Assembly (NCBI GenBank): GCA_001412365.1
Contig: LKUE01000411.1
Span: forward strand, 1 to 12,029
Direction of reading: 5' to 3'
Source: Desulfuromonas sp. SDB
Lineage (GTDB): Bacteria > SDB-A
Length of the DNA stretch: 12,029 nt
Shown: positions 1-12,029 of the stretch, piece after piece
Layout of the letters: every line of letters begins with the position of its first letter
Position numbering within the stretch: position 1 is the stretch's first letter
The notes under the pieces: generated by a model
What the model was told of the DNA's origin: nothing
Seen by the model: the letters and a program-made list of their open reading frames with translations, nothing else
Database searches by the model: none
Program-made: the position numbers and the translations under genes

Positions 1-839
1 GTGATTATATTGTAGATTTTTATTGTCACTCGAAAAAGTTAATAATTGAACTAGATGGAGGAGTGCATAATAAAGAAGAAGTTAGAAAAAAGGATCAAAA
101 GAGAGATAAATATTTAACTTCTTTAGGAAATACAGTCTTAAGATTTAAGAATAATCAGTTACTAAAACAACCTGAGGAAGTTTTTAAAGAAATACAAAAA
201 ACAATCTCTCCCCCTGGAAGTGATAATAGTGAGGGTATAAACTTCTCTCCCCCCGGGATAGATTCAGGAGAGGATATAAACTTCTCTCCCCCTGGGAGTG
301 ATAATAGTGAGGGTATAAACTTCTCTCCCCCTGGGAGAGATAAGAGAGAGGGTTTTATACTCTTCATAGACTGCCGTGAAATGGGGACGATGATTGACCG
401 GAGACACCGGATATTGACAGATGAGGATATTAAAAAAATCGCCGACACTTACCATAAATGGCTTTCTCTCACCTTAGGAGAGAAGTCTGAAGGACAGATA
501 AGAACTAAACAATCATCTCACCCATTGGGAGAGATGTCCGAAGGACAGATAAAAACTAAACAATCATCTCACCCATTGGGAGAGATGTCCGAAGGACAGA
601 GAGGGTATGAAAATATAAAGGGCTTTTGTAAATCTGCCAGTTTAGAAGAAGTTAAAAAGCATAATTATATTCTGACTCCAGGTAGATATGTGGGAATTCC
701 CGATGAGGAAGATGACGGGGAACCATTTGATCAAAAGATGAAAAGATTGACAAAGGAATTAGCTGAACAGATGGAAACATCTAAGAAATTGGATAGAGAA
801 ATTAAAAAGAATTTAAAAAACCTGGGGTATGAGATTTGA
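1..839 (+). CDS. hsdM: Type I modification methylase HsdM, C-terminal part, with in-frame DUF559 nuclease domain and repeat insertions (5' partial)
   Basis: The frame is open from the first full codon (position 3), so the gene begins outside the window; the GTG at 63 is internal. Positions 3-203 encode the end of a DUF559 (Vsr/MutH-like PD-(D/E)XK) domain: [18 protein letters not shown] and then [17 protein letters not shown]. After a repeat array (204-359), the chain reads [16 protein letters not shown] and [17 protein letters not shown], which are typical of the HsdM C-terminus. A second array follows (465-606), then [18 protein letters not shown] and [10 protein letters not shown], and an acidic/lysine-rich helix ending NLKNLGYEI, the usual HsdM end. 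HsdM is the N6-adenine methylase subunit that works with HsdS and HsdR; its SAM-binding and NPPY motifs would lie upstream and cannot be seen. The stop overlaps the hsdS start. HsdM identity is secure. Whether the enlarged protein is still active is unknown. A separate DUF559 gene reading into an hsdM remnant is less likely, because the frame is kept across three junctions. Confidence 0.85.
204..359 (+). repeat. Tandem array A: four 39-nt units inside hsdM
   Basis: Four adjacent 39-nt units lie at 204-242, 243-281, 282-320 and 321-359. Each encodes 13 residues of the type [13 protein letters not shown]. Units 1 and 3 are nearly identical; units 2 and 4 have diverged. Unit 4 holds a perfect hairpin: TCTCTCCC (322-329), a 3-nt loop, then GGGAGAGA (333-340), and it ends with GAGAGGGT (346-353). 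The array lies directly between the DUF559 domain and the HsdM motif FILFID. As 39 is divisible by three, copy-number change would keep the frame. Confidence 0.93.
465..606 (+). repeat. Tandem array B: 51-nt units (2 full + 1 partial) inside hsdM
   Basis: Units start at 465, 516 and 567. Each full unit encodes 17 residues ([17 protein letters not shown] type). A 34-nt core (516-549, identical at 567-600) is followed by a 17-nt A-rich linker, absent after the last copy. The core has two potential hairpins: TCTC-A-CCC / GGG-A-GAGA with an ATT loop, and TGTCC-GAA-GGACA. Unit 1 is the most diverged. The array ends with GAGAGGGT (599-606), the same ending as array A, which suggests one repeat family. 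It fills the HsdM loop between the DTYHKW helix and the GFCKSA motif, which is variable in length in the family. Confidence 0.92.
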
Positions 840-2014: not shown

Positions 2015-2092
2015 TCTAATAAACTCTTATTCCAGTAAATCTAAATATTCTAATTGTTAAATAGTCCGAAAAATAATAAAGTTTATATAACT

Positions 2093-2098
2093 CTATAT
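2093..2098 (+). repeat. Left target-site duplication of the IS (CTATAT)
   Basis: CTATAT directly abuts the left inverted repeat and is repeated exactly next to the right one (3759-3764). A 6-bp duplication fits the 5-6 bp usual for IS1634-type elements. Confidence 0.8.
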
Positions 2099-2125
2099 CC
2101 TAAAATTTTCTATTTTTAATAACGA
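2099..2125 (+). repeat. Left terminal inverted repeat of the IS
   Basis: The 27-bp end begins CCTAAAATTTTC and finishes TTTTAATAACGA. It pairs with 3732-3758 at 26 of 27 positions. Its inner part (TTAATAACGATGT, 2116-2128) is repeated exactly at 2179-2191, where it contains the transposase start codon. Confidence 0.92.
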
Positions 2126-2150
2126 TGTATTATAAGTAACGAGAAAGTGC

Positions 2151-2179
2151 TTGACAATTATTAAAATAATAGTTATTAT
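2151..2179 (+). promoter_or_regulatory. Sigma70-type promoter of the transposase gene
   Basis: A perfect -35 box TTGACA (2151-2156) is followed by 17 bp and TATTAT (2174-2179), one mismatch from the -10 consensus. Transcription would start near 2186, almost at the ATG (2188), so the mRNA is predicted to be leaderless or nearly so. No Shine-Dalgarno sequence precedes the ATG, which agrees. The spacer holds the AT palindrome ATTATT-AA-AATAAT. Confidence 0.7.
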
Positions 2180-2187
2180 TAATAACG

Positions 2188-3741
2188 ATGTCATATAAAA
2201 TAGAACAACCAATAGGAAATAATATTTATGTTTACGAAGTACAAAGCTACTGGGATAAATCAAAACAGCAGGCAAGGCAGAAGAGAAAATATATCGGTAA
2301 AAAAGATCCTAAAACTGGAAATATAATAACACCAAGAAAAAGTAATCTTCCCCGTTTTTCAAAAGATTTTGGTAATGTTTATTTATTAAAACATATAGCA
2401 CAATCCATAGGTTTGACAGATATCTTAAAAAAGATATTTCCTGATGATTTCAAGGAAATATTGGCATTTGCTTATTATGATATCTGTGAGAGTAAGGCTT
2501 TATATTTATTCAAGAGCTGGATGGAGATGACCTATCTGCCACAGACAAAGGCATTAACCCCCAAACAGATAACTTCATTTACCAGGCAAATGTCATCAAT
2601 GGAAGAGGAAAGAGAAAGATTTTTTAATAAATGGCTAGATAAGAGGAAACCAGTAAATGCTGTGGTGTTTGATATCACATCACTTTCAGGATACTCAGAG
2701 TTGATAAAGTTGCTTGAATGGGGATATAACCGGGATTTAGAAAAATTACCACAAATTAACTTTGGAGTTGTATTTGATCAGGAAGGAAATATTCCATTGT
2801 TTTACAGAATATATCCAGGGAGTATAACCGATGTTAAAACATTAAAAAACATACTAAAACATCTTCTAGCCAATAAATTAAAACAGATCATATTTATCTT
2901 GGATCGAGGATTTTACAGCATGTCAAATATAAGTGAAATGGAGGAAGAATCAATAGATTTTATTATTCCATTTCCATTTAAAGTCAAACAAGCAATTACA
3001 CTTATTTCAAAACATAAAGCAATATTGCAAAGTCCCCTAAGCGCATTCAAGTTTAAAAAAGAAGTTATATACTACATAAAAGACAACATTGTACTAAATG
3101 ATATTAATTTATCCGCGCATATTTATTTTAGCAAGACCAGAGAATATTATGAGCAGAATCATTTTATGAATAGATTATTGGATATAGAAGATAACATAAA
3201 AAAGAGAACATTTTATTATCTTGGAAATGTCCGTGAATATTTATCGCAAAACTTCAGAGGTTCTGAGAAATTATTTGATATTACCCTAAAAGAAGGGAAA
3301 GCATATTTAACCAGGAAAGTCAAAGCTATATCCAGAAAAATAAACAAAATGGGATATATGATTTTATTGTCAAACAACCATACCATAACAAAAGAAGATG
3401 CATTGCTTTATTACAGAAGGAGAGATTACCTGGAAAAACTGTTTGACAGTTTAAAAAATGAACTTGATGGTAAAAGATTAAGAGGGCATTCAAAAGAAAC
3501 AATAGAAGGAAGATTATACTTGAAATTTATATCATTAATACTATATTCAGCAATAAGTAATAAAATGAAAGAACAGGAATTATTTAAAAAATATTCAGTT
3601 AAAGAATTATTAAATGAAATGAAGAAAATTAGAGTAGTTGAAATGACAAATGGAAAACAATATATTACTGAAATATCAAAAAAACAAAGTAATATCCTTA
3701 ATGCTTTTGATCTTGAAATTCCTATCGATCCTCGTTATTAA
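2188..3741 (+). CDS. DDE transposase, IS1634-type
   Basis: This 517-residue transposase catalyses cut-and-paste movement of the surrounding element. The N-terminal stretch YVYEVQSYWDKSKQQARQKR with KYIGKKDPKTG is typical of this transposase group and probably binds the element ends. The RNase H-like core shows D162 (VVFDITSLSGY), D239 (FILDRGFYS) and E416. The last lies in an exact YREK motif: Y409, R412, E416, K423, with spacing Y(2)R(3)E(6)K. All catalytic residues are present and no frameshift is visible. The start ATG at 2188 fits the promoter; the in-frame ATG at 2125 meets a stop after four codons. The stop codon (3739-3741) lies inside the right inverted repeat. The gene has the same orientation as hsdR, so transcripts leaving it could run into hsdR. 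Confidence 0.93.
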   Translation: MSYKIEQPIGNNIYVYEVQSYWDKSKQQARQKRKYIGKKDPKTGNIITPRKSNLPRFSKDFGNVYLLKHIAQSIGLTDILKKIFPDDFKEILAFAYYDICESKALYLFKSWMEMTYLPQTKALTPKQITSFTRQMSSMEEERERFFNKWLDKRKPVNAVVFDITSLSGYSELIKLLEWGYNRDLEKLPQINFGVVFDQEGNIPLFYRIYPGSITDVKTLKNILKHLLANKLKQIIFILDRGFYSMSNISEMEEESIDFIIPFPFKVKQAITLISKHKAILQSPLSAFKFKKEVIYYIKDNIVLNDINLSAHIYFSKTREYYEQNHFMNRLLDIEDNIKKRTFYYLGNVREYLSQNFRGSEKLFDITLKEGKAYLTRKVKAISRKINKMGYMILLSNNHTITKEDALLYYRRRDYLEKLFDSLKNELDGKRLRGHSKETIEGRLYLKFISLILYSAISNKMKEQELFKKYSVKELLNEMKKIRVVEMTNGKQYITEISKKQSNILNAFDLEIPIDPRY

Positions 3742-3758
3742 AAATAGAAAAATTTAGG
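3732..3758 (-). repeat. Right terminal inverted repeat of the IS
   Basis: On the minus strand this reads CCTAAATTTTTC and continues like the left end, with one mismatch in 27. It contains the last codons and stop of the transposase gene. Confidence 0.92.
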
Positions 3759-3764
3759 CTATAT
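3759..3764 (+). repeat. Right target-site duplication of the IS (CTATAT)
   Basis: This is an exact copy of 2093-2098, directly outside the right inverted repeat. Confidence 0.8.
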
Positions 3765-3823
3765 CGTAATATAATGAAATTAAGCTTTATATATAAACCA
3801 ATACTCCCCTATATAAAAATCCC

Positions 3824-6800
3824 ATGAGTAAGATCTGCGAAAATGATATTGAACGTATGACCCTGGAGTTACTGGAAGAGCAGGGATATCTCTACAAGCA
3901 TGGACCGGCTATCTCTCCGGATGGGAAAGACTGTGAAAGAGACAACTATTCCCAGGTGATCCTTAAATCGAGACTGCTTGATACAATAGAAAAAATAAAT
4001 CCCAAAATCCCTTCATCAGTACTGCTGGAAGTGGTTAAAAAAATTCAGAGAATGGAAGAACTTGATCTGGTCAGCAATAATGAAGCTTTTCATAGACTTC
4101 TCACCGATGGAGTTAATGTCGAATACAAGAAAAATGACCGAGTAATTGGAGATTCAGTTAAGTTAATTGATTTTTCAAATCCGGAGAAAAATGAATTTTT
4201 AGCAGTAAATCAATTCACCGTTATTGAAAATAACAACAACAAAAGACCGGATATTATTCTGTTTATAAATGGAATCCCTCTGGTAGTCATTGAACTAAAA
4301 AATCCTGCGGATGAGTCGGCAACTGTACTGAGTGCTTACAAGCAACTGCAGACTTACAAGAGTACTATACCCTCATTGTTTCATTACAATGGATTACTGG
4401 TTATCTCCGATGGTCAGGAAGCAAAAGCAGGATCACTTACCGCTAAGTACCAGCGGTTTATGGTATGGAAATCAATTGAAGGGAAAAGAGAAGCGTCTAA
4501 ATATTTCAATGAGTTGGAAGTATTGATCCAGGGCTGTCTGAATAAAAAAGTTTTGCTGGATTTAATAAGACATTTTACCGTTTTTGAAAAGACTTCTTCG
4601 GTAAAAGAAGATCTTAAAAGCGCAAAGAAGGTGAAACAGAAGATCATCACCGTTAAAACTGAAAAGAAAATTGCCGCTTATCATCAGTATTTTGCAGTAA
4701 ACAAGGCAATCAAAAGAACTAAAACTGCCACTTCCCCCAAAGGAGACCGAAGATGCGGAGTAATCTGGCATTCCCAGGGATCAGGAAAGAGTTTGAGTAT
4801 GGTTTTCTATACCGGGAAATTAGTTCTGGAATTGGATAATCCCACAGTAGTGGTATTGACTGACCGTAATGATCTAGATGACCAGTTGTTTGATACCTTT
4901 GCCGGCTGCAATCAGTTATTAAGACAGAAACCGGTACAGGCGGAAAGCAGAGATGATCTGAAAGAAAAGCTGAAAGTGGCAGCAGGGGGAATTATATTTA
5001 CCACTATTCAGAAGTTCTTTCCTGAGGATAAAGGAGATAAATATCCCGAATTGTCCAACCGCAGAAATATTATAGTCATTGCCGATGAAGCCCACCGCAG
5101 CCAGTATGATTTTATTGACGGTTTTGCCCGGCACATGAGAGATGCACTGCCCAATGCTTCTTTTATCAGCTTTACCGGAACTCCTATTGAAAAAGAAGAC
5201 CGGAATACCCGGGCAGTTTTCGGGGATTATATTGATATCTACGATATCGAGCAGAGTATTGATGATAAATCAACGGTTAAAATCTACTATGAAAGCCGGA
5301 TGGTTAATATTGATCTTAAGGAGGAAGAAAAGGAAAAACTGGATGAAAGGTTAGATGAAGTGCTGGAGAATGTGGAACCTTACGGTCAGGATCGGATTAA
5401 AAGTAAGTGGGCGAGACTGGAAGCAGTGGTGGGTAATGAAAACAGATTGAGGAAGGTGGCGGAAGATATTGTCAATCACTTTGAGCAGAGGTTGGAAGTG
5501 TTTGAAGGTAAAGCGCTGATAGTGTGCATGAGTCGGAGGATCTGTATTGATTTATACAATGAGATAACCAGATTAAGACCTTCCTGGCATGATGAAGATG
5601 ATGATAAGGGATTGATAAAGGTTATTATGACCGGTTCCTCCTCTGATCCGATAGATTGGCAACCTCATATCCGGAATAAGGAGCGGAGAAGAGCAATCGG
5701 AGACCGGGTAAAAGATCCTTTTGATCCCTTGAGAGTAATCCTGGTAAGGGATATGTGGCTAACCGGTTTTGATGCCCCCTGCCTGCATACCATGTATGTC
5801 GATAAGCCGATGAGAGGTCATAACCTGATGCAGGCGATTGCCAGAGTTAACCGGGTATTCGGAGAAAAACCGGGAGGATTGATTGTAGATTATATTGGAA
5901 TTGCTTCCGATTTGAAAAAGGCACTTTCCACTTATACCGAAAGCGGGGGGAGAGGAAAGCCCACTTTAGATCAAGCGGAAGCAGTTGCACTGATGATGGA
6001 AAAATATGAAATAGTTTCCCAGATGTTCTATGAATTTAACTACCAGGATTATTTCAATTTGGAGACTTCAGACCGGTTGAACTTTATCCGGGAAGCTGAG
6101 GAATATGTTTTGGGCTTGGAAGATGGAAAACAGAGATTTACCCGGGAAGTGATGATGCTGTCCAAAGCATTTGCCCTCTCCGTTCCGCATCCTCAGGCAT
6201 TGAAGATACGAGATGATGTCGGTTTCTTTCAGGCACTGAGAGCCAGATTATTGAAATTTGAGACAGTTAAAGCAGCATTGGCTGAGGAAGAAGTGGAATC
6301 GGTCATCAAGCAAATTATTTCCCAGGCGGTGGTAACAGATAAGGTAATTGATGTTTTTGATGCGGCGGGGATTAAGAAACCAGATATTTCCATTTTATCT
6401 GATGAATTTTTAGCGGAAGTCCGGGGGATGAAACATAAGAATGTGGCGGTTGAATTTTTGAGAAAGTTATTAAATGATGAGATCAAGGAAAGATCAGTTA
6501 GAAATCTAATCTTGAGTAAGAAATTTATGGAAATGCTGGAACAGGCAATTAACCGGTATAAAAACAAAATTTTGACTTCGGCAGAAGTAATTCAGGAATT
6601 GATGGATCTTGCTAAAGATATCCGTAAATCAGATAAACGGAAAGATAAACTTAAACTTAATGATGATGAATTAGCTTTCTACGATGCCCTGGCGGACAAT
6701 GAAAACGCAGTTGAGGTATTGGGAGATGAAGTGCTAGGGAAGATTGCCCGGGAGTTGGTGGATAAAGTTAAGAAAAGCGCTACCATTGATTGGACGATCA

Positions 6801-6952
6801 AGGAAAGTGTCAGAGCAAAATTAAGAGTTCTGGTGAGAAGAACCTTGAGAAAATACAAATATCCCCCGGACAAACAGGAAAGAGCCACTCAAACCGTTCT
6901 CAAACAGGCGGAATTGCTTGCCAATATCTGGGTAAAGGAGAGGATAAAATGA
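3824..6952 (+). CDS. hsdR: Type I restriction endonuclease/translocase subunit HsdR
   Basis: At 1042 residues this is a normal full-length HsdR, the subunit that pulls DNA through the complex using ATP and then cuts it. The N-terminal PD-(D/E)XK nuclease shows D143 (KRPDIILF) and E157-x-K159 (VIELKNP). The SF2 motor follows: Walker A HSQGSGKS (316-323, K322), [10 protein letters not shown] (motif Ia), DEAH box 421-424, SFTGTP (449-454, motif III), [13 protein letters not shown] (motif V) and QAIARVNR (670-677, motif VI). The C-terminal helical region ([12 protein letters not shown], then [11 protein letters not shown]) is the usual HsdR tail that contacts the methylase core. All key residues are present. 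No Shine-Dalgarno sequence precedes the ATG at 3824, and no in-frame start lies just upstream. The gene uses more G/C-ending codons (CCG, GCC, CGG, CTG) than hsdS or the following gene. The IS now separates it from hsdMS, so it may depend on IS read-through or on a weak AT-rich promoter at 3765-3823. Confidence 0.97.
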
Positions 6953-6958
6953 GAGGTA

Positions 6959-8758
6959 ATGATGACTAATCAGAAATATTCAGTTAATCAGCATTATATC
7001 GAAACTGTATTGAACTGGATTAAATCAGGGGAGATTGCTATTCCAGAAATACAGCGACCTTTTGTTTGGGATAATGCAAAAGTAAGAGATCTAATCGATT
7101 CTTTGTACAATGGATATCCTATTGGATATTTAATTGCCTGGAGAAATCCGGATGTTCGGCTTAAAAACGGAGATATATCAGCAGGGAAGAAAATTCTAAT
7201 TGACGGACAGCAAAGGGTTAAGGCTTTAACTACTGCAATACTTGGAAGAAATATTGTTAATAAAGATTATAAGTTTATTAGAATAAGAATTGCTTATCAT
7301 CCTCTTGAAGATATATTTGAAGTGAGTAATACAGCTATAGAAAGAGATGGAACCTGGTTACCCGATATTTCAAAAATTATTACCGGTGAAATTGCAATAC
7401 ACAAAATTGTCAGAGAATATTGCAATAAAAATAGTGATGTTGATGAGGATTTTTTATTTGGAAAAATAGAATCGTTGAGAGATATAGCTAAAAAGCCACT
7501 GGGATTGATTGAATTATATCCTGATCTGGATATTGAAACAGTAACCGAAATCTTTATAAGAATTAATTCACAGGGAGTTGAATTAAGTCAGGCTGATTTT
7601 GCCATGTCTAAAATTTCAGCTAACGAGGAATGTAATGGACCGTTGCTAAGAAAATGTATTGATTACTTTTCCCATTTAGCAGTAGCACCAGAGTTTTATC
7701 AGCAACTTGTTGATTTAGATGAAGAATTCAGAAATTCTGAATATTTATCTAAAGTTTCTTGGCTGAAAAATGAAAAAGAAGATCTTTATGATCCATCTTA
7801 TTCTGATGTACTGAGGGTAGCATTCACTTCGGAATTTAACCGTGGCAAGTTAGCTGATTTAGTAAGTTTACTATCCGGTAGGAATTTTGAGGAGAGAACT
7901 TATGAAGATGAAATTGTAAAAAATTCATTTAAGACATTGAGAGATGGTGTCTTAAATTTTATTAATGAGACTAATTTTAAAAGATATTTGATGATTATTA
8001 AATCTTCTGGATTTATTTCTCCAAAATTAATCAGATCTCAAAATACTTTAAATTTTGGATATGTACTTTATTTGAAACTTAAATCTTTAGGTTACAAACC
8101 AGGAAATATCGAGAAATATATTAGAAGATGGTTTGTTATGTCGGTATTAACTGGTAGATATACTGCATCTCCAGAAGGTATGTTTGACAGAGATGTTAAA
8201 AATATTAAAAAGGATAATTTTGAAGAATATCTGGATAATGTTGAGAAAGGAGAATTATCTGATGCATTTTGGGAGGTTTCTTTAATTGAATCAATGAATA
8301 CATCTGTTTCCAGCAGTCCATATTTTAATGTATATTTAGCAGCCCAAGCAAAGGAAAATGACAGAGGATTTTTATCTAAAGAAATTACTGTTCAGGATTT
8401 GATTACTCATAGAGGGGATATCCATCATATTTTTCCAAGAGAATATCTGAAAAAATTTGATCTTAAAAGAGGAAGATATAACCAAATAGCTAATTTCGTA
8501 TATATGCAATCAGAGATAAACATTGCTATTGGCAAAAAATCTCCAAATGTATATTTTCAGGAACTTGTTGATCAGGTAAACGGAAAGAAAACGAAATATG
8601 GAGCTATAGATGATAAGAAAGAATTAATGAAAAATCTTAAAGTTAATTGTATTCCAGAAGACATTTTTGATATGGATATTGATAAGTATGATGAATTTTT
8701 AGTCAAAAGAAGAAAGTTGATGGCAGAAAAAATCAAAAAATACTATTTTTCATTGTAA
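6959..8758 (+). CDS. DUF262 protein with C-terminal HNH (DUF1524-like) domain, GmrSD-type candidate
   Basis: This 599-residue protein joins the two halves of the GmrSD type IV restriction family in one chain. The N-terminal DUF262 (ParB/Srx-like) domain shows IPEIQRPFVW (28-37), DSLYNGYPIGYLIAW and ILIDGQQRVKALT with DGQQR at 82-86, followed by FIRINSQGVELSQADF (from residue 199). The C-terminal nuclease has GDIHHIFPREYL (H489, H490) with downstream asparagines N508, N512 and N521 (NQIANFVYMQ, INIAIGKKSP). In GmrSD, DUF262 uses NTP and the HNH part cuts DNA with sugar-modified hydroxymethylcytosine; the target of this protein is unknown. Both active sites look complete. The gene starts 6 nt after hsdR, so the two are probably co-transcribed. 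AGAGGT (6952-6957) suits the second ATG (6962) better than the first (6959). An accessory role in the type I system cannot be excluded. Confidence 0.88.
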   Translation: MMTNQKYSVNQHYIETVLNWIKSGEIAIPEIQRPFVWDNAKVRDLIDSLYNGYPIGYLIAWRNPDVRLKNGDISAGKKILIDGQQRVKALTTAILGRNIVNKDYKFIRIRIAYHPLEDIFEVSNTAIERDGTWLPDISKIITGEIAIHKIVREYCNKNSDVDEDFLFGKIESLRDIAKKPLGLIELYPDLDIETVTEIFIRINSQGVELSQADFAMSKISANEECNGPLLRKCIDYFSHLAVAPEFYQQLVDLDEEFRNSEYLSKVSWLKNEKEDLYDPSYSDVLRVAFTSEFNRGKLADLVSLLSGRNFEERTYEDEIVKNSFKTLRDGVLNFINETNFKRYLMIIKSSGFISPKLIRSQNTLNFGYVLYLKLKSLGYKPGNIEKYIRRWFVMSVLTGRYTASPEGMFDRDVKNIKKDNFEEYLDNVEKGELSDAFWEVSLIESMNTSVSSSPYFNVYLAAQAKENDRGFLSKEITVQDLITHRGDIHHIFPREYLKKFDLKRGRYNQIANFVYMQSEINIAIGKKSPNVYFQELVDQVNGKKTKYGAIDDKKELMKNLKVNCIPEDIFDMDIDKYDEFLVKRRKLMAEKIKKYYFSL

Positions 8759-8880
8759 TATTGAGAAGTCGGAGAGATAAAGTAAATAGCCAGGTACTTT
8801 TGCATTTTAACTTCAAAATTTCAGAAGTAGATGAAAAGTTTGTATCTTAGGACAATAAAGATTTATACTCATTAATAAAC

Positions 8881-8910
8881 CATGCAAATTGCAAGTTGTA
8901 CTTGCAAATT
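8881..8910. promoter_or_regulatory. Operator-like palindrome and direct repeat in the mcrB upstream region
   Basis: A perfect inverted repeat TTGCAAGT (8889-8896), TGT, ACTTGCAA (8900-8907) overlaps a direct repeat TGCAAATT at 8883-8890 and 8903-8910, whose period is 20 bp, about two helical turns. It lies about 80-100 nt before mcrB in the only sizeable non-coding gap of this half (8759-8987). It looks like a site for a dimeric regulator; with no following T-run it does not look like a terminator. No good -35/-10 pair is clear; TATAAC (8922-8927) and TTGATA (8945-8950) are possible elements. Confidence 0.45.
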
Positions 8911-8976
8911 ACATAAAAATGTATAACCGGTACAATCAGGGACTTTGATATTTATTAAAATATTTAAATAATAATC

Positions 8977-8981
8977 AGGAG
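8977..8981 (+). promoter_or_regulatory. Ribosome binding site of mcrB
   Basis: AGGAG lies 6 nt before the ATG at 8988 and fixes this start. Confidence 0.75.
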
Positions 8982-8987
8982 CAAATA

Positions 8988-11606
8988 ATGAGCAAGAACG
9001 AGGGATTATCTGAATATCAAAAGTTTTCCCAGCAAAAAATCTTAGAAGGATACAGCATGGAAACTTCTAGCAAGATGTGGAAAGAATATAATCAAACTGG
9101 AAAAATCAATTATTCAAATTATCAGAAAAGAGAGAATGAAACAAAATCACCAAATAATCCACCGGAAGTTCTTGATCGTTATTTAAATGAATTTAAGCCG
9201 ATTGCCAAACAATGGTTTGAACAGAGGGAGTGGTTTTATAGATATTATGAGTTTTTTCAAAATTTCATTAAAAAGGAAAATTTAGAAAAAGCAAACTGGG
9301 AAGATTTTCAGAAGATTGGTGATCATTTACATTCGATGAATAACCTCGCATTAGCAAAGAAGAGAGCCTTTGGAAAACCAAATCATCCAATTGAACATTA
9401 CCGTAACAGCTTTTTATATCTGATTTATGGTGATGATCCCTTAGAAGAAAGAATGAAAAAATTTTCATCAAGTGAAAAATATCGAATAAAAGGACTCGGC
9501 AAGAGTTCAATTAGTGAAATATTAGGTCATATTTGTGCAGATAAATTTGTCCATTACAACCGGAGAGATAGAGATGCAATAGAAATTCTTGGTATTAAGT
9601 TCTCCACTGAGAAAGGTAAAGGCTTTGTAGATGAAATTATCCAGTACAATGAAGCAATCGAACCGGTCAAGAAGAAGTATGCGGAAATTGTAGGCCATGT
9701 AACCAAGCTTCCCATAAATTTAGAAATTGATCAGTTTTTTAGCTTTTTATATGAGAAAAATGAGAAAGGGAAAAAATTAGCTAAGCAGGTAGAAGAAAAA
9801 ATATCCGATTATAGTATCAATTATTGGTTAATTGCTCCTGGAGAAGGAGCAAGGTTATGGGAAGAATGTTTACAAGAGAATATAATTTCTTTAGGTTGGG
9901 ATGAGTTAGGAGATATATCTGGGTGTAAAAATAAAGAAGATTTCACTCAGAAATTCTTAGAAATATATCCAGATCGAACCAATGCCAATAATGACATTGC
10001 CGCCTTATATGATTTTAACCATAAAATGAAACCTGGAGATTTTGTTTTTGCTAAAAGAGGAAGAAAGGAAATATTGGGATATGGGGAAGTGTTATCAGAT
10101 GCAAGTTATGATGATCAAAAGGAAAGCTATAAGAATATTCGAAAAGTAAAATGGTTAAATAAAGGTCAATGGAAAATTAAAGATCGAATGTTACCAGTCA
10201 AGACTTTAACCAAAATTACTAATAAAAAAGATCTTTTGGATGATATTTTAAAATTGATAAAGGAGGATGAGAGTATTGAACAGAAAAAAGAAACTCAAAA
10301 TTTCTGGTGGTTGAACTGCAATCCGAATATTTGGGATATTAACAGTATTAGAGTAGGAGAGAGAAAAAATTATACAACCTATAATGAAAAGGGAAACAAA
10401 CGACAACTTTACAGAAATTTTCAGGAAGTTAAAAAAGGTGATTTAATTTTTGGTTATGTTACCAGTCCGGTTAGAGAAGTTGTTTGTGAGGCTATCATTA
10501 CCGATATTCAGTATGAAGATGATGAAGTGATGGAATTTACCTTTGAAAAAACTGAACAATATGAGCACCCGGTTAGCTGGAATGAATTAAAAGCAATTGA
10601 AGAATTATCAAACTGTGAACCGTTAATTAACAATCAGGGTAGTTTGTTTAAAGTTACCAAAGATGAATATGAAATTATAAATGCGATTATTGATGAAAGA
10701 AATCCGGAAGAGGAAATCTTAATTGAATCATATGGTCTTGAGGATATGCTGCAGGAAGTGTTTTTAGATGAAGATGAGATAAACAAGATTCTGGATATTC
10801 TAAAATTCAAAAAGAATATAATTCTGCAGGGACCTCCCGGAGTGGGGAAAACCTACCTGGCTAAACGATTAGCTTATCTGATGATGGGGGAGAAAGATGA
10901 AAAAAGAATCCAGATGATCCAATTTCATCAGTCCTACTCCTATGAGGATTTTATCCAAGGCTACCGTCCTACCGAAGAAGGAAATTTCGAACTGAAAGAC
11001 GGGATTTTCTTTCAATTCTGTAAAAGAGCAATGAGAAATACTGGTCAAAATTACTTTTTTATCATTGATGAGATTAACCGGGGAAATTTAAGCAAAATTT
11101 TCGGTGAATTGATGATGCTTATAGAAAAAGACAAACGAGGGAAGGAATTTGAAATTCCTCTTACCTATTCAGAAAGTGAACAGGAGAAGTTCTACATTCC
11201 GACTAATCTCTACTTTATTGGAACTATGAATACTGCTGACCGTTCATTAGCCATGGTTGATTATGCTTTAAGGAGAAGATTTGCATTTATTAATCTAGAA
11301 CCAGCATTTTTTAAAGGTAGTTTTAAAAATCATCTATTAGAACTTGGTGTGGAAGAGTATCTGATCAAGGAAATTATTGATCGAATGAACAGGTTAAATG
11401 AAGTTATTGCAGAAGATACTAAAAATTTAGGTCCTGGCTATAAAATCGGTCACAGTTATTTTTGCCCGATAGATGAGGAAATTGAGTATGATGAAGAATG
11501 GTTCAATACTGTGGTGGAAAATGAGATTAAATTACTTCTGGAAGAATACTGGTTCGATAACCGGGAAAAAGTCAATGATGAGGTGAATAAATTACTTCTG
11601 AAGTAA
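8988..11606 (+). CDS. mcrB: McrB-type GTPase with HhH-like region and two PUA/EVE-type reader domains
   Basis: This 872-residue protein is the motor and recognition subunit of an McrBC modification-dependent restriction system. The C-terminal AAA+ domain has Walker A GPPGVGKT (615-622, K621), Walker B FFIIDEINRGN (D694, E695) and the McrB signature MNTADRS (from 747), followed by DYALRRRFAF; McrB proteins use GTP. The N-terminal part is larger than in E. coli McrB. It has a helical region with IKGLGKSSISEILGHI (about 167-182), helix-hairpin-helix-like. It then has a first PUA-like domain opening YWLIAPGEGARLWEE (279 to about 427) and a second opening FWWLNCNPNIWD (439 to about 568), which resembles EVE domains. 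EVE and related PUA folds in McrB proteins read modified bases such as methylated cytosine or adenine; the base read here is unknown. A good ribosome binding site fixes the start. The mcrC frame overlaps the 3' end. Confidence 0.93.
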   Translation: MSKNEGLSEYQKFSQQKILEGYSMETSSKMWKEYNQTGKINYSNYQKRENETKSPNNPPEVLDRYLNEFKPIAKQWFEQREWFYRYYEFFQNFIKKENLEKANWEDFQKIGDHLHSMNNLALAKKRAFGKPNHPIEHYRNSFLYLIYGDDPLEERMKKFSSSEKYRIKGLGKSSISEILGHICADKFVHYNRRDRDAIEILGIKFSTEKGKGFVDEIIQYNEAIEPVKKKYAEIVGHVTKLPINLEIDQFFSFLYEKNEKGKKLAKQVEEKISDYSINYWLIAPGEGARLWEECLQENIISLGWDELGDISGCKNKEDFTQKFLEIYPDRTNANNDIAALYDFNHKMKPGDFVFAKRGRKEILGYGEVLSDASYDDQKESYKNIRKVKWLNKGQWKIKDRMLPVKTLTKITNKKDLLDDILKLIKEDESIEQKKETQNFWWLNCNPNIWDINSIRVGERKNYTTYNEKGNKRQLYRNFQEVKKGDLIFGYVTSPVREVVCEAIITDIQYEDDEVMEFTFEKTEQYEHPVSWNELKAIEELSNCEPLINNQGSLFKVTKDEYEIINAIIDERNPEEEILIESYGLEDMLQEVFLDEDEINKILDILKFKKNIILQGPPGVGKTYLAKRLAYLMMGEKDEKRIQMIQFHQSYSYEDFIQGYRPTEEGNFELKDGIFFQFCKRAMRNTGQNYFFIIDEINRGNLSKIFGELMMLIEKDKRGKEFEIPLTYSESEQEKFYIPTNLYFIGTMNTADRSLAMVDYALRRRFAFINLEPAFFKGSFKNHLLELGVEEYLIKEIIDRMNRLNEVIAEDTKNLGPGYKIGHSYFCPIDEEIEYDEEWFNTVVENEIKLLLEEYWFDNREKVNDEVNKLLLK
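11580..11586 (+). promoter_or_regulatory. Ribosome binding site for mcrC
   Basis: GAGGTGA matches the consensus Shine-Dalgarno sequence over 7 nt and lies 4 nt before the ATT at 11591. It is inside the mcrB coding region, and no ATG, GTG or TTG in the mcrC frame lies near it. Confidence 0.65.
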
Positions 11607-12029
11607 AAATACCAATTGAAAACATATATTTCCTGCTTTGCTATGCCTGGAACAAGTTAGACGAAGCAGAGGTAGTCAATGTTGAATCAATTGATTCTCC
11701 TGAACTTTTAGATCTGTTTGCTAAAGTACTGGTCAAAGGTATTTCCCATTTATTGATTCGGGGTTTTGACCGAAATTACATAACTTATGAACAACAAACC
11801 AGCAAGATCAAGGGTAAAATTGATTTTGGAGAATCCTTAAAAAAGAATTTATTTAAAAATGCCAAAGCTCATTGTGTTTTTGATGAATTTAGCCATAATG
11901 TTCTGCATAATCAGATTTTAAAGTACACTTTGAGGACTTTATTACGATATGAGAAACTGGATCCCAAAATAAGTAATGAAATCAGCGGAATATACAAATA
12001 TTTTTTGGAAATTGATGTTATTCAGATCC
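11591..12029 (+). CDS. mcrC: McrC, N-terminal part (3' partial, probable ATT start)
   Basis: The frame opens after a TAA at 11588-11590 and stays open to the window end. It encodes VKIPIENIYFLLCYAWNKLDE, followed by LLDLFAKVLVKGISHLLIRG, IKGKIDFGESL and CVFDEFSHNVLHNQILKYTLR. These are the standard N-terminal motifs of McrC, the nuclease partner that binds the McrB hexamer and cuts DNA. The catalytic PD-(D/E)XK motif would lie beyond the window. No ATG, GTG or TTG is available before these motifs; the first is a TTG some 60 codons in, after conserved sequence. The best start is ATT at 11591, behind GAGGTGA, giving a 16-nt overlap with mcrB. AUU starts are known but rare (E. coli infC). A sequencing error near the junction is the alternative. 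The family call is secure; the start is tentative. Confidence 0.85.
   Translation, partial: MTSEVKIPIENIYFLLCYAWNKLDEAEVVNVESIDSPELLDLFAKVLVKGISHLLIRGFDRNYITYEQQTSKIKGKIDFGESLKKNLFKNAKAHCVFDEFSHNVLHNQILKYTLRTLLRYEKLDPKISNEISGIYKYFLEIDVIQI

Follow-up and report, generated by a model that had tools for sequence, protein, structure and literature searches.

The window, that is, the whole stretch of 12,029 nucleotides that was analysed, is the entire contig G000:C411 of a 3.1-Mb assembly in 433 contigs, and its first base already lies inside a DUF559 nuclease domain. This domain occupies the beginning of an open frame of 278 codons (3-839, + strand) that continues into the type I methylase HsdM. 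Only the C-terminal part of HsdM is present, with hsdS and hsdR downstream (Pfam). The features of the locus are as follows:

3-206, + strand: DUF559 nuclease, C-terminal two thirds, truncated by the contig start (PF04480; clade-conserved columns)
205-353, + strand: element right end, a 39-bp REP-like palindrome repeated 3.8 times and ending GAGAGGGT at 346-353 (repeat analysis)
354-839, + strand: HsdM C-terminal part (PF02384; alignment with uninterrupted HsdM)
477-607, + strand: second repeat array in the HsdM tail, with no nuclease, ending GAGAGGGT (repeat analysis; alignment)
836-2014, + strand: hsdS (PF01420, 5e-26)
3824-6952, + strand: hsdR, uninterrupted (Pfam; empty-site homologue for the HsdR insertion sites)

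The original prediction of a single frame running from DUF559 through the repeats to the HsdM C-terminus was confirmed, with the parts in that order and both Pfam domains in the frame. DUF559 (PF04480) covers residues 2-68 (E = 6.8e-22; profile positions 44-108 of 109), and its 77.8 bits against a family cut-off of 20.6 place it in the family. N6_Mtase (PF02384) covers residues 112-237 (E = 1.3e-12) and aligns to profile positions 234-310 of 311, that is, the last quarter. Each unit of the 39-bp tandem array holds a GC-rich palindrome and is read in frame as SPPG.D..EG; the second array, of 51-bp tandem units (477-600), breaks up the HsdM tail.

The missing HsdM N-terminus and the rest of the truncated DUF559 were found on no other contig of the window genome, in which one further, distant DUF559 is present. 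Because the contig starts in DUF559 and no other contig supplies the missing half, the 5' border was placed by reference to relatives. On the best reading, a mobile element of ~0.45-0.5 kb, of which the window holds the right-hand two thirds, is inserted in an HsdM loop. Elsewhere in the window, hsdS and hsdR are separated by an IS-like element (2083-3774) that encodes a DDE transposase and has inverted repeats of 43 bp (88% complementary). The remainder of the defence island (6959-12029) encodes a GmrSD_N protein, a McrB-like AAA_5 protein with an EVE domain, and one more frame running off the contig end.

Relatives in type I restriction-modification genes

Using the 69-aa piece of the window nuclease as the query against ~85,000 species genomes, we obtained 287 relatives, the best 80 of which were examined. 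Among these 80, 22 loci belong to the window's sequence type, and every one lies within a long open frame. Pfam searches placed DUF559 between HsdM_N and N6_Mtase in L023, L024, L025, L028-L031, L046 and L066, and between HSDR_N and SWI2_SNF2 with the HsdR C-terminus in L021, L022, L026, L027, L034, L037, L038 and L041. The domain splits the HsdR helicase domain in L033 and is hosted by HsdS in L032 and L039. Only one side of the host is present in L036, at a contig end, and in L040, which has stop codons and no HsdR N-terminus upstream.

The original prediction proposed looking for an HsdM N-terminus upstream of DUF559 in the same frame and for a repeat copy at the 5' border, and relatives possess both. 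Alignment with uninterrupted HsdM (MAFFT) revealed a clean addition in a loop: empty proteins join the (C/L)WFL strand to the (V/I)LFIDAR strand by a linker of ~16 residues, and the addition falls there. The right border in the window coincides with this insertion point. The motifs DPxxGSGG and NPP(F/Y) were both present in 11/11 relatives checked.

A tree of 69 DUF559 domains placed the window and the 22 relatives in a single clade (support 99/97), within which there was no free-standing DUF559 gene. The hosts of this clade are type I restriction-modification (R-M) genes only, namely HsdM, HsdR and HsdS, a restriction that could also reflect function. Overall, with members in three different subunits and at several sites, the originally proposed mobile nuclease that colonises genes in frame is strongly favoured. 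The hosts, the majority of which are metagenome bins, span ~15 phyla by record titles and taxonomy, of which certain bin labels may be wrong. Several genomes (G011, G018 and G022) carry two in-frame elements in R-M genes.

Surveys of individual groups extended the range of hosts. In a Verrucomicrobia group (387 genomes), the profile matches of at least 130 bits were all in frames of 412-1302 aa, and weaker matches were mostly in frames of ~120-330 aa. In a Chloroflexota group (400 genomes), all five matches at E<=1e-38 were in frames of 649-1347 aa. Among the matches listed for Bacteroidota (395 genomes), ~41 of ~158, as counted from the listing, were in frames longer than 370 aa; hosts in this survey included HsdR, HsdM, HsdS, type ISP enzymes, Eco57I/MmeI-type and N6_N4 methylases, and the methionine synthase MetH. 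The fusion query recovered no relative from IMG/VR, and tblastn searches of plasmids and phages with the window pieces and the nuclease gave just ordinary HsdM or separate DUF559 matches. As side observations, HsdS in L137 (3504-5333, - strand) adjoins an HsdR that bears a window-type element and itself contains a DUF559 differing in both sequence type and repeat linkers; three loci of the Chloroflexota group (L200, L201 and L202) carry DUF559 in long frames that resembled DNA methylases by eye.

The nuclease itself is well conserved. Invariant residues across 22 aligned rows include D50, E61, D63, H67 and D76, and all five columns are present in the window. The dN/dS of close nuclease pairs was ~0.07-0.12, and the substitution pattern indicates that the nuclease evolves under purifying selection. 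Its AlphaFold model (pLDDT 92.5) matched the DUF559 protein NGO0050 (3hrl), the homing endonuclease I-Bth0305I and Vsr. For I-Bth0305I (3r3p), the comparison gave a VIA Z of 12.3, an rmsd of 2.5 over 92 and a Foldseek value of 2e-4, and the nuclease profile also detected this enzyme by sequence (E = 1.5e-4). No separate DNA-binding domain was visible in the ~115-aa nuclease. An AlphaFold model of a whole interrupted HsdM (6 sequences) had a mean pLDDT of 53 and was set aside.

Palindromic ends and hosts outside restriction-modification

The left end of the element consists of ACCCTCACCC, a few bases, and CCCTCTCCC-loop-GGGAGAGGG, followed by the nuclease. The right end is the inverse of the left, finishing with GGGTGAGGGT, and the two ends thus carry inverted REP-like hairpins. 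Variant ends (CCCTCCCTCAATCCCTCCC on the left, GAGAGGGT on the right) occur in HsdR site-1 copies; the visible right side in the window is of the GAGAGGGT variant, matching the HsdR-borne L021, L036 and L041. Depending on the frame of the locus, the left-end DNA is translated as PSPQPSPSGRG or PHPQPLSQGEK, and the right-end DNA as GRGAGGEG, PLPLGEGRGEG or RVRE. Since the ends are read in differing frames among loci, they are conserved as DNA.

REP-like inserts without a nuclease occur in the same genes, in the window (477-607), L028, L029, L143 and L144, and the window array falls in the very loop where L028, L029 and L144 bear theirs. Outside the element and the R-M locus, the REP-like motif is rare in most host genomes, and 20 non-host genomes contained 2 copies. 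The genome of L021 (G004) stands apart: it has ~149 copies of the motif where other host genomes have 0-10, which may reflect a burst of copies lacking the nuclease. We also considered that host genomes are simply REP-rich and rejected this, G004 alone being so.

Palindromes accompany DUF559 beyond the embedded copies as well. GC-rich palindromes were found on both sides of 22/39 free-standing DUF559 genes, compared with 2/160 other ORFs, whose flanks in the same loci served as the control (p ~1e-16). In addition, the host DNA just outside the element has an inverted repeat of its own at 17/41 ends (p<=0.05 each; permutation 0/20000), for example TCGGTCGAG-GAA-CTCGACCGA in L032. Such host-derived repeats were far commoner at element borders (L021-L066) than at points drawn at random from the same genes. 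They may be either hairpins that serve as the target or a product of insertion; the empty homologues compared at insertion sites were all distant.

A second embedded lineage, from Bacteroidota and Ignavibacteriota, resides in MetH and in leucyl-tRNA synthetase (LeuRS). MetH carries the nuclease in L070, L142, L187 and L188, and by eye in L203, near the B12-binding domain or within the activation domain. The LeuRS hosts are:

L138, 2267-5758, + strand: LeuRS with one in-frame DUF559
L141, 3-3209, - strand: LeuRS with two DUF559 at two sites

HxGH and TTRPDT are intact in both enzymes and KMSKS is intact in L138; in L141, whose frame extends past the contig end, no KMSKS was found. A search for the LeuRS editing domain gave one strong match in each of the two genomes, the interrupted gene itself; G019 has a further but weak match. 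The interrupted enzyme must function with its insert, or something unknown must remove it.

Evidence on movement and competing explanations

In the pairs L031/L144 (HsdM) and L034/L148 (HsdR), the host proteins are 82-85% identical and the nucleases at the same site only 58-59%. Conversely, the nucleases of the window and L147, both in HsdM, group among or beside HsdR-borne nucleases, and constraining the HsdM-borne or the HsdR-borne nucleases to one group was rejected at borderline significance (p 0.039 and 0.048). Constant inheritance of the nuclease with its host gene, which we had considered, is contradicted by the mismatched identities and weakly by these topology tests. As judged from these alignments and trees, nuclease and host similarity are decoupled in both directions.

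The HsdR genes of L041 and L143 provide a more local view. Silent differences affect ~55% of their identical-residue codons, compared with 26% within the element and 4/23 in the codons that immediately follow (Fisher p ~1e-11), and the left edge of this dip is sharp; a second dip coincides with a nuclease-less REP pair in the same HsdR gene. The tract looks like homing with local transfer. Among ~73 same-site pairs, the majority of them saturated, it is the single clear homing-like tract.

Taken together, we consider it likely that these loci carry an in-frame, non-splicing, REP-ended nuclease element that spreads by homing- or transposition-like copying, with movement and cleavage as the parts that we infer. 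The element consists of a REP-like hairpin, the DUF559 nuclease and an inverted REP-like hairpin, and in HsdM it sits in frame in the loop that separates the NPPF-bearing catalytic half from the LFIDAR strand. It would be translated within the host protein, which would tolerate the insert. The nuclease may cut empty alleles or hairpin-bearing DNA, and repair or recombination would then copy the element in, in a homing-like manner. Rare jumps to new sites might proceed via the hairpin ends or short host inverted repeats, and selection would retain only in-frame insertions in tolerant loops.

The main rival is functional recruitment, whereby the type I R-M complex acquired a nuclease domain for its benefit to restriction or repair. 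As any R-M subunit would serve, recruitment would explain hosts as different as HsdM, HsdR and HsdS, and it accords with the confinement of the window clade to type I R-M genes, the purifying selection on the nuclease and the intact host motifs. However, related elements with the same kind of ends occur in MetH and LeuRS, several different sites are used in each subunit, the ends are inverted REP-like sequences that also exist as nuclease-less copies, and elements turn over at one site in similar hosts. The foreign hosts, the inverted ends and the one-site turnover in particular weaken this explanation, and we regard it as unlikely. A narrower form of it in the original prediction, a functional methylase-nuclease fusion, fared no better: with same-clade elements in HsdR and HsdS, and related elements in unrelated enzymes, a fusion confined to methylases is unlikely.

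Somewhat less probable still is passive capture, in which recombining REP-like palindromes occasionally carry a neighbouring DUF559 gene into a loop and the nuclease is irrelevant to movement. The nuclease-less copies in the same genes would fit such a process, as would the REP palindromes already known to lie within ORFs (PMC3733652). Yet most host genomes have few or no copies of the motif outside the R-M locus, palindromes bracket DUF559 genes far oftener than other ORFs, and the nuclease is conserved.

We see little room for an unrecognised form of splicing or bypass, in which the hairpins would signal either excision of the insert from RNA or protein or its skipping by the ribosome. Hairpins at both ends and essential hosts such as LeuRS would suit this explanation, but every verified host keeps the insert in frame and free of stops, which neither RNA removal nor bypass requires. 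Moreover, Rfam gave no group I/II intron match in the window, L023, L028, L041, L138 or L142. The originally noted lack of splicing motifs at the downstream border was borne out: Pfam scans of the interrupted proteins showed no intein (Hint) domain beside the nuclease, and the linkers are purely repeat-derived. Finally, an assembly chimera or two separate genes in the window, as might be suspected of a contig that starts inside the nuclease and contains tandem repeats, can be excluded with near certainty because relatives from many independent assemblies show the same layout at the same HsdM site in open frames.

Comparison with known mobile elements

The preferred reading, a self-copying element that stays in the protein, invites comparison with several known systems. 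Inteins with homing endonucleases are similarly found in frame in conserved genes, carry the nuclease in a translated insert and spread by homing, whereas the insert here lacks a protein-splicing domain, consists of a ~115-aa nuclease with repeat linkers and has hairpin DNA ends. Rickettsia palindromic elements (RPEs) are gene-less palindromic inserts of 100-150 bp. They are tolerated in frame within proteins (PMC3733652); just the solo copies described here resemble them, as the palindromes otherwise bracket a nuclease gene. In fungal mitochondrial rps3, a homing endonuclease is fused in frame to the host gene, as here, but it is a LAGLIDADG nuclease in one organellar host gene, with no palindromic ends and no multi-gene spread.

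I-Bth0305I (EDxHD, Vsr-like) has the same catalytic fold as DUF559, although the aligned active-site residues are not all common to both. It is intron-encoded and has extra DNA-binding regions (PMC3943268), neither of which applies to the DUF559 nuclease described here. REP/RAYT systems also combine short GC-rich, inverted palindromes with a flanked gene for a DNA-cutting enzyme; however, the enzyme here is DUF559, with its Vsr-like fold, rather than an HUH/Y1 tyrosine transposase, the ends are of the ACCCTCACCC type rather than GTAG/CGTC-tagged, and the whole cassette lies in frame within a gene. In sum, inteins, introns, RAYT/REP systems and RPEs each have defining features that the element lacks, and its overlap with known homing endonucleases is the catalytic fold only.

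We found no published description of the element in the open-access literature, which was the literature covered. The case for an undescribed class of mobile element seems to us evenly balanced: REP-ended, homing-like DUF559 nucleases that move themselves into coding loops, remain unspliced, mobilise nuclease-less REP pairs in trans and are the source of many in-frame palindromic repeats in bacterial proteins. Intron RNA and intein splicing are examples of the exit that mobile elements in genes are thought to need. The elements described here appear to do without either and would persist by being tolerable, even where a genome has yielded no leucyl-tRNA synthetase other than the interrupted one. 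In addition, their nuclease is a candidate enzyme for bringing palindromic repeats into coding sequence; to our knowledge, how Rickettsia palindromic elements do so is unanswered. If this is true, the annotation of type I R-M genes and of many DUF559-domain fusions would change. In further fusions, DUF559 stands at the N-terminus of uroporphyrinogen-III synthase in L035 (checked with Pfam), L049 and L079, follows an N-formylglutamate amidohydrolase in L193, and occurs in L064 within an epimerase-like frame that has no second Pfam match.
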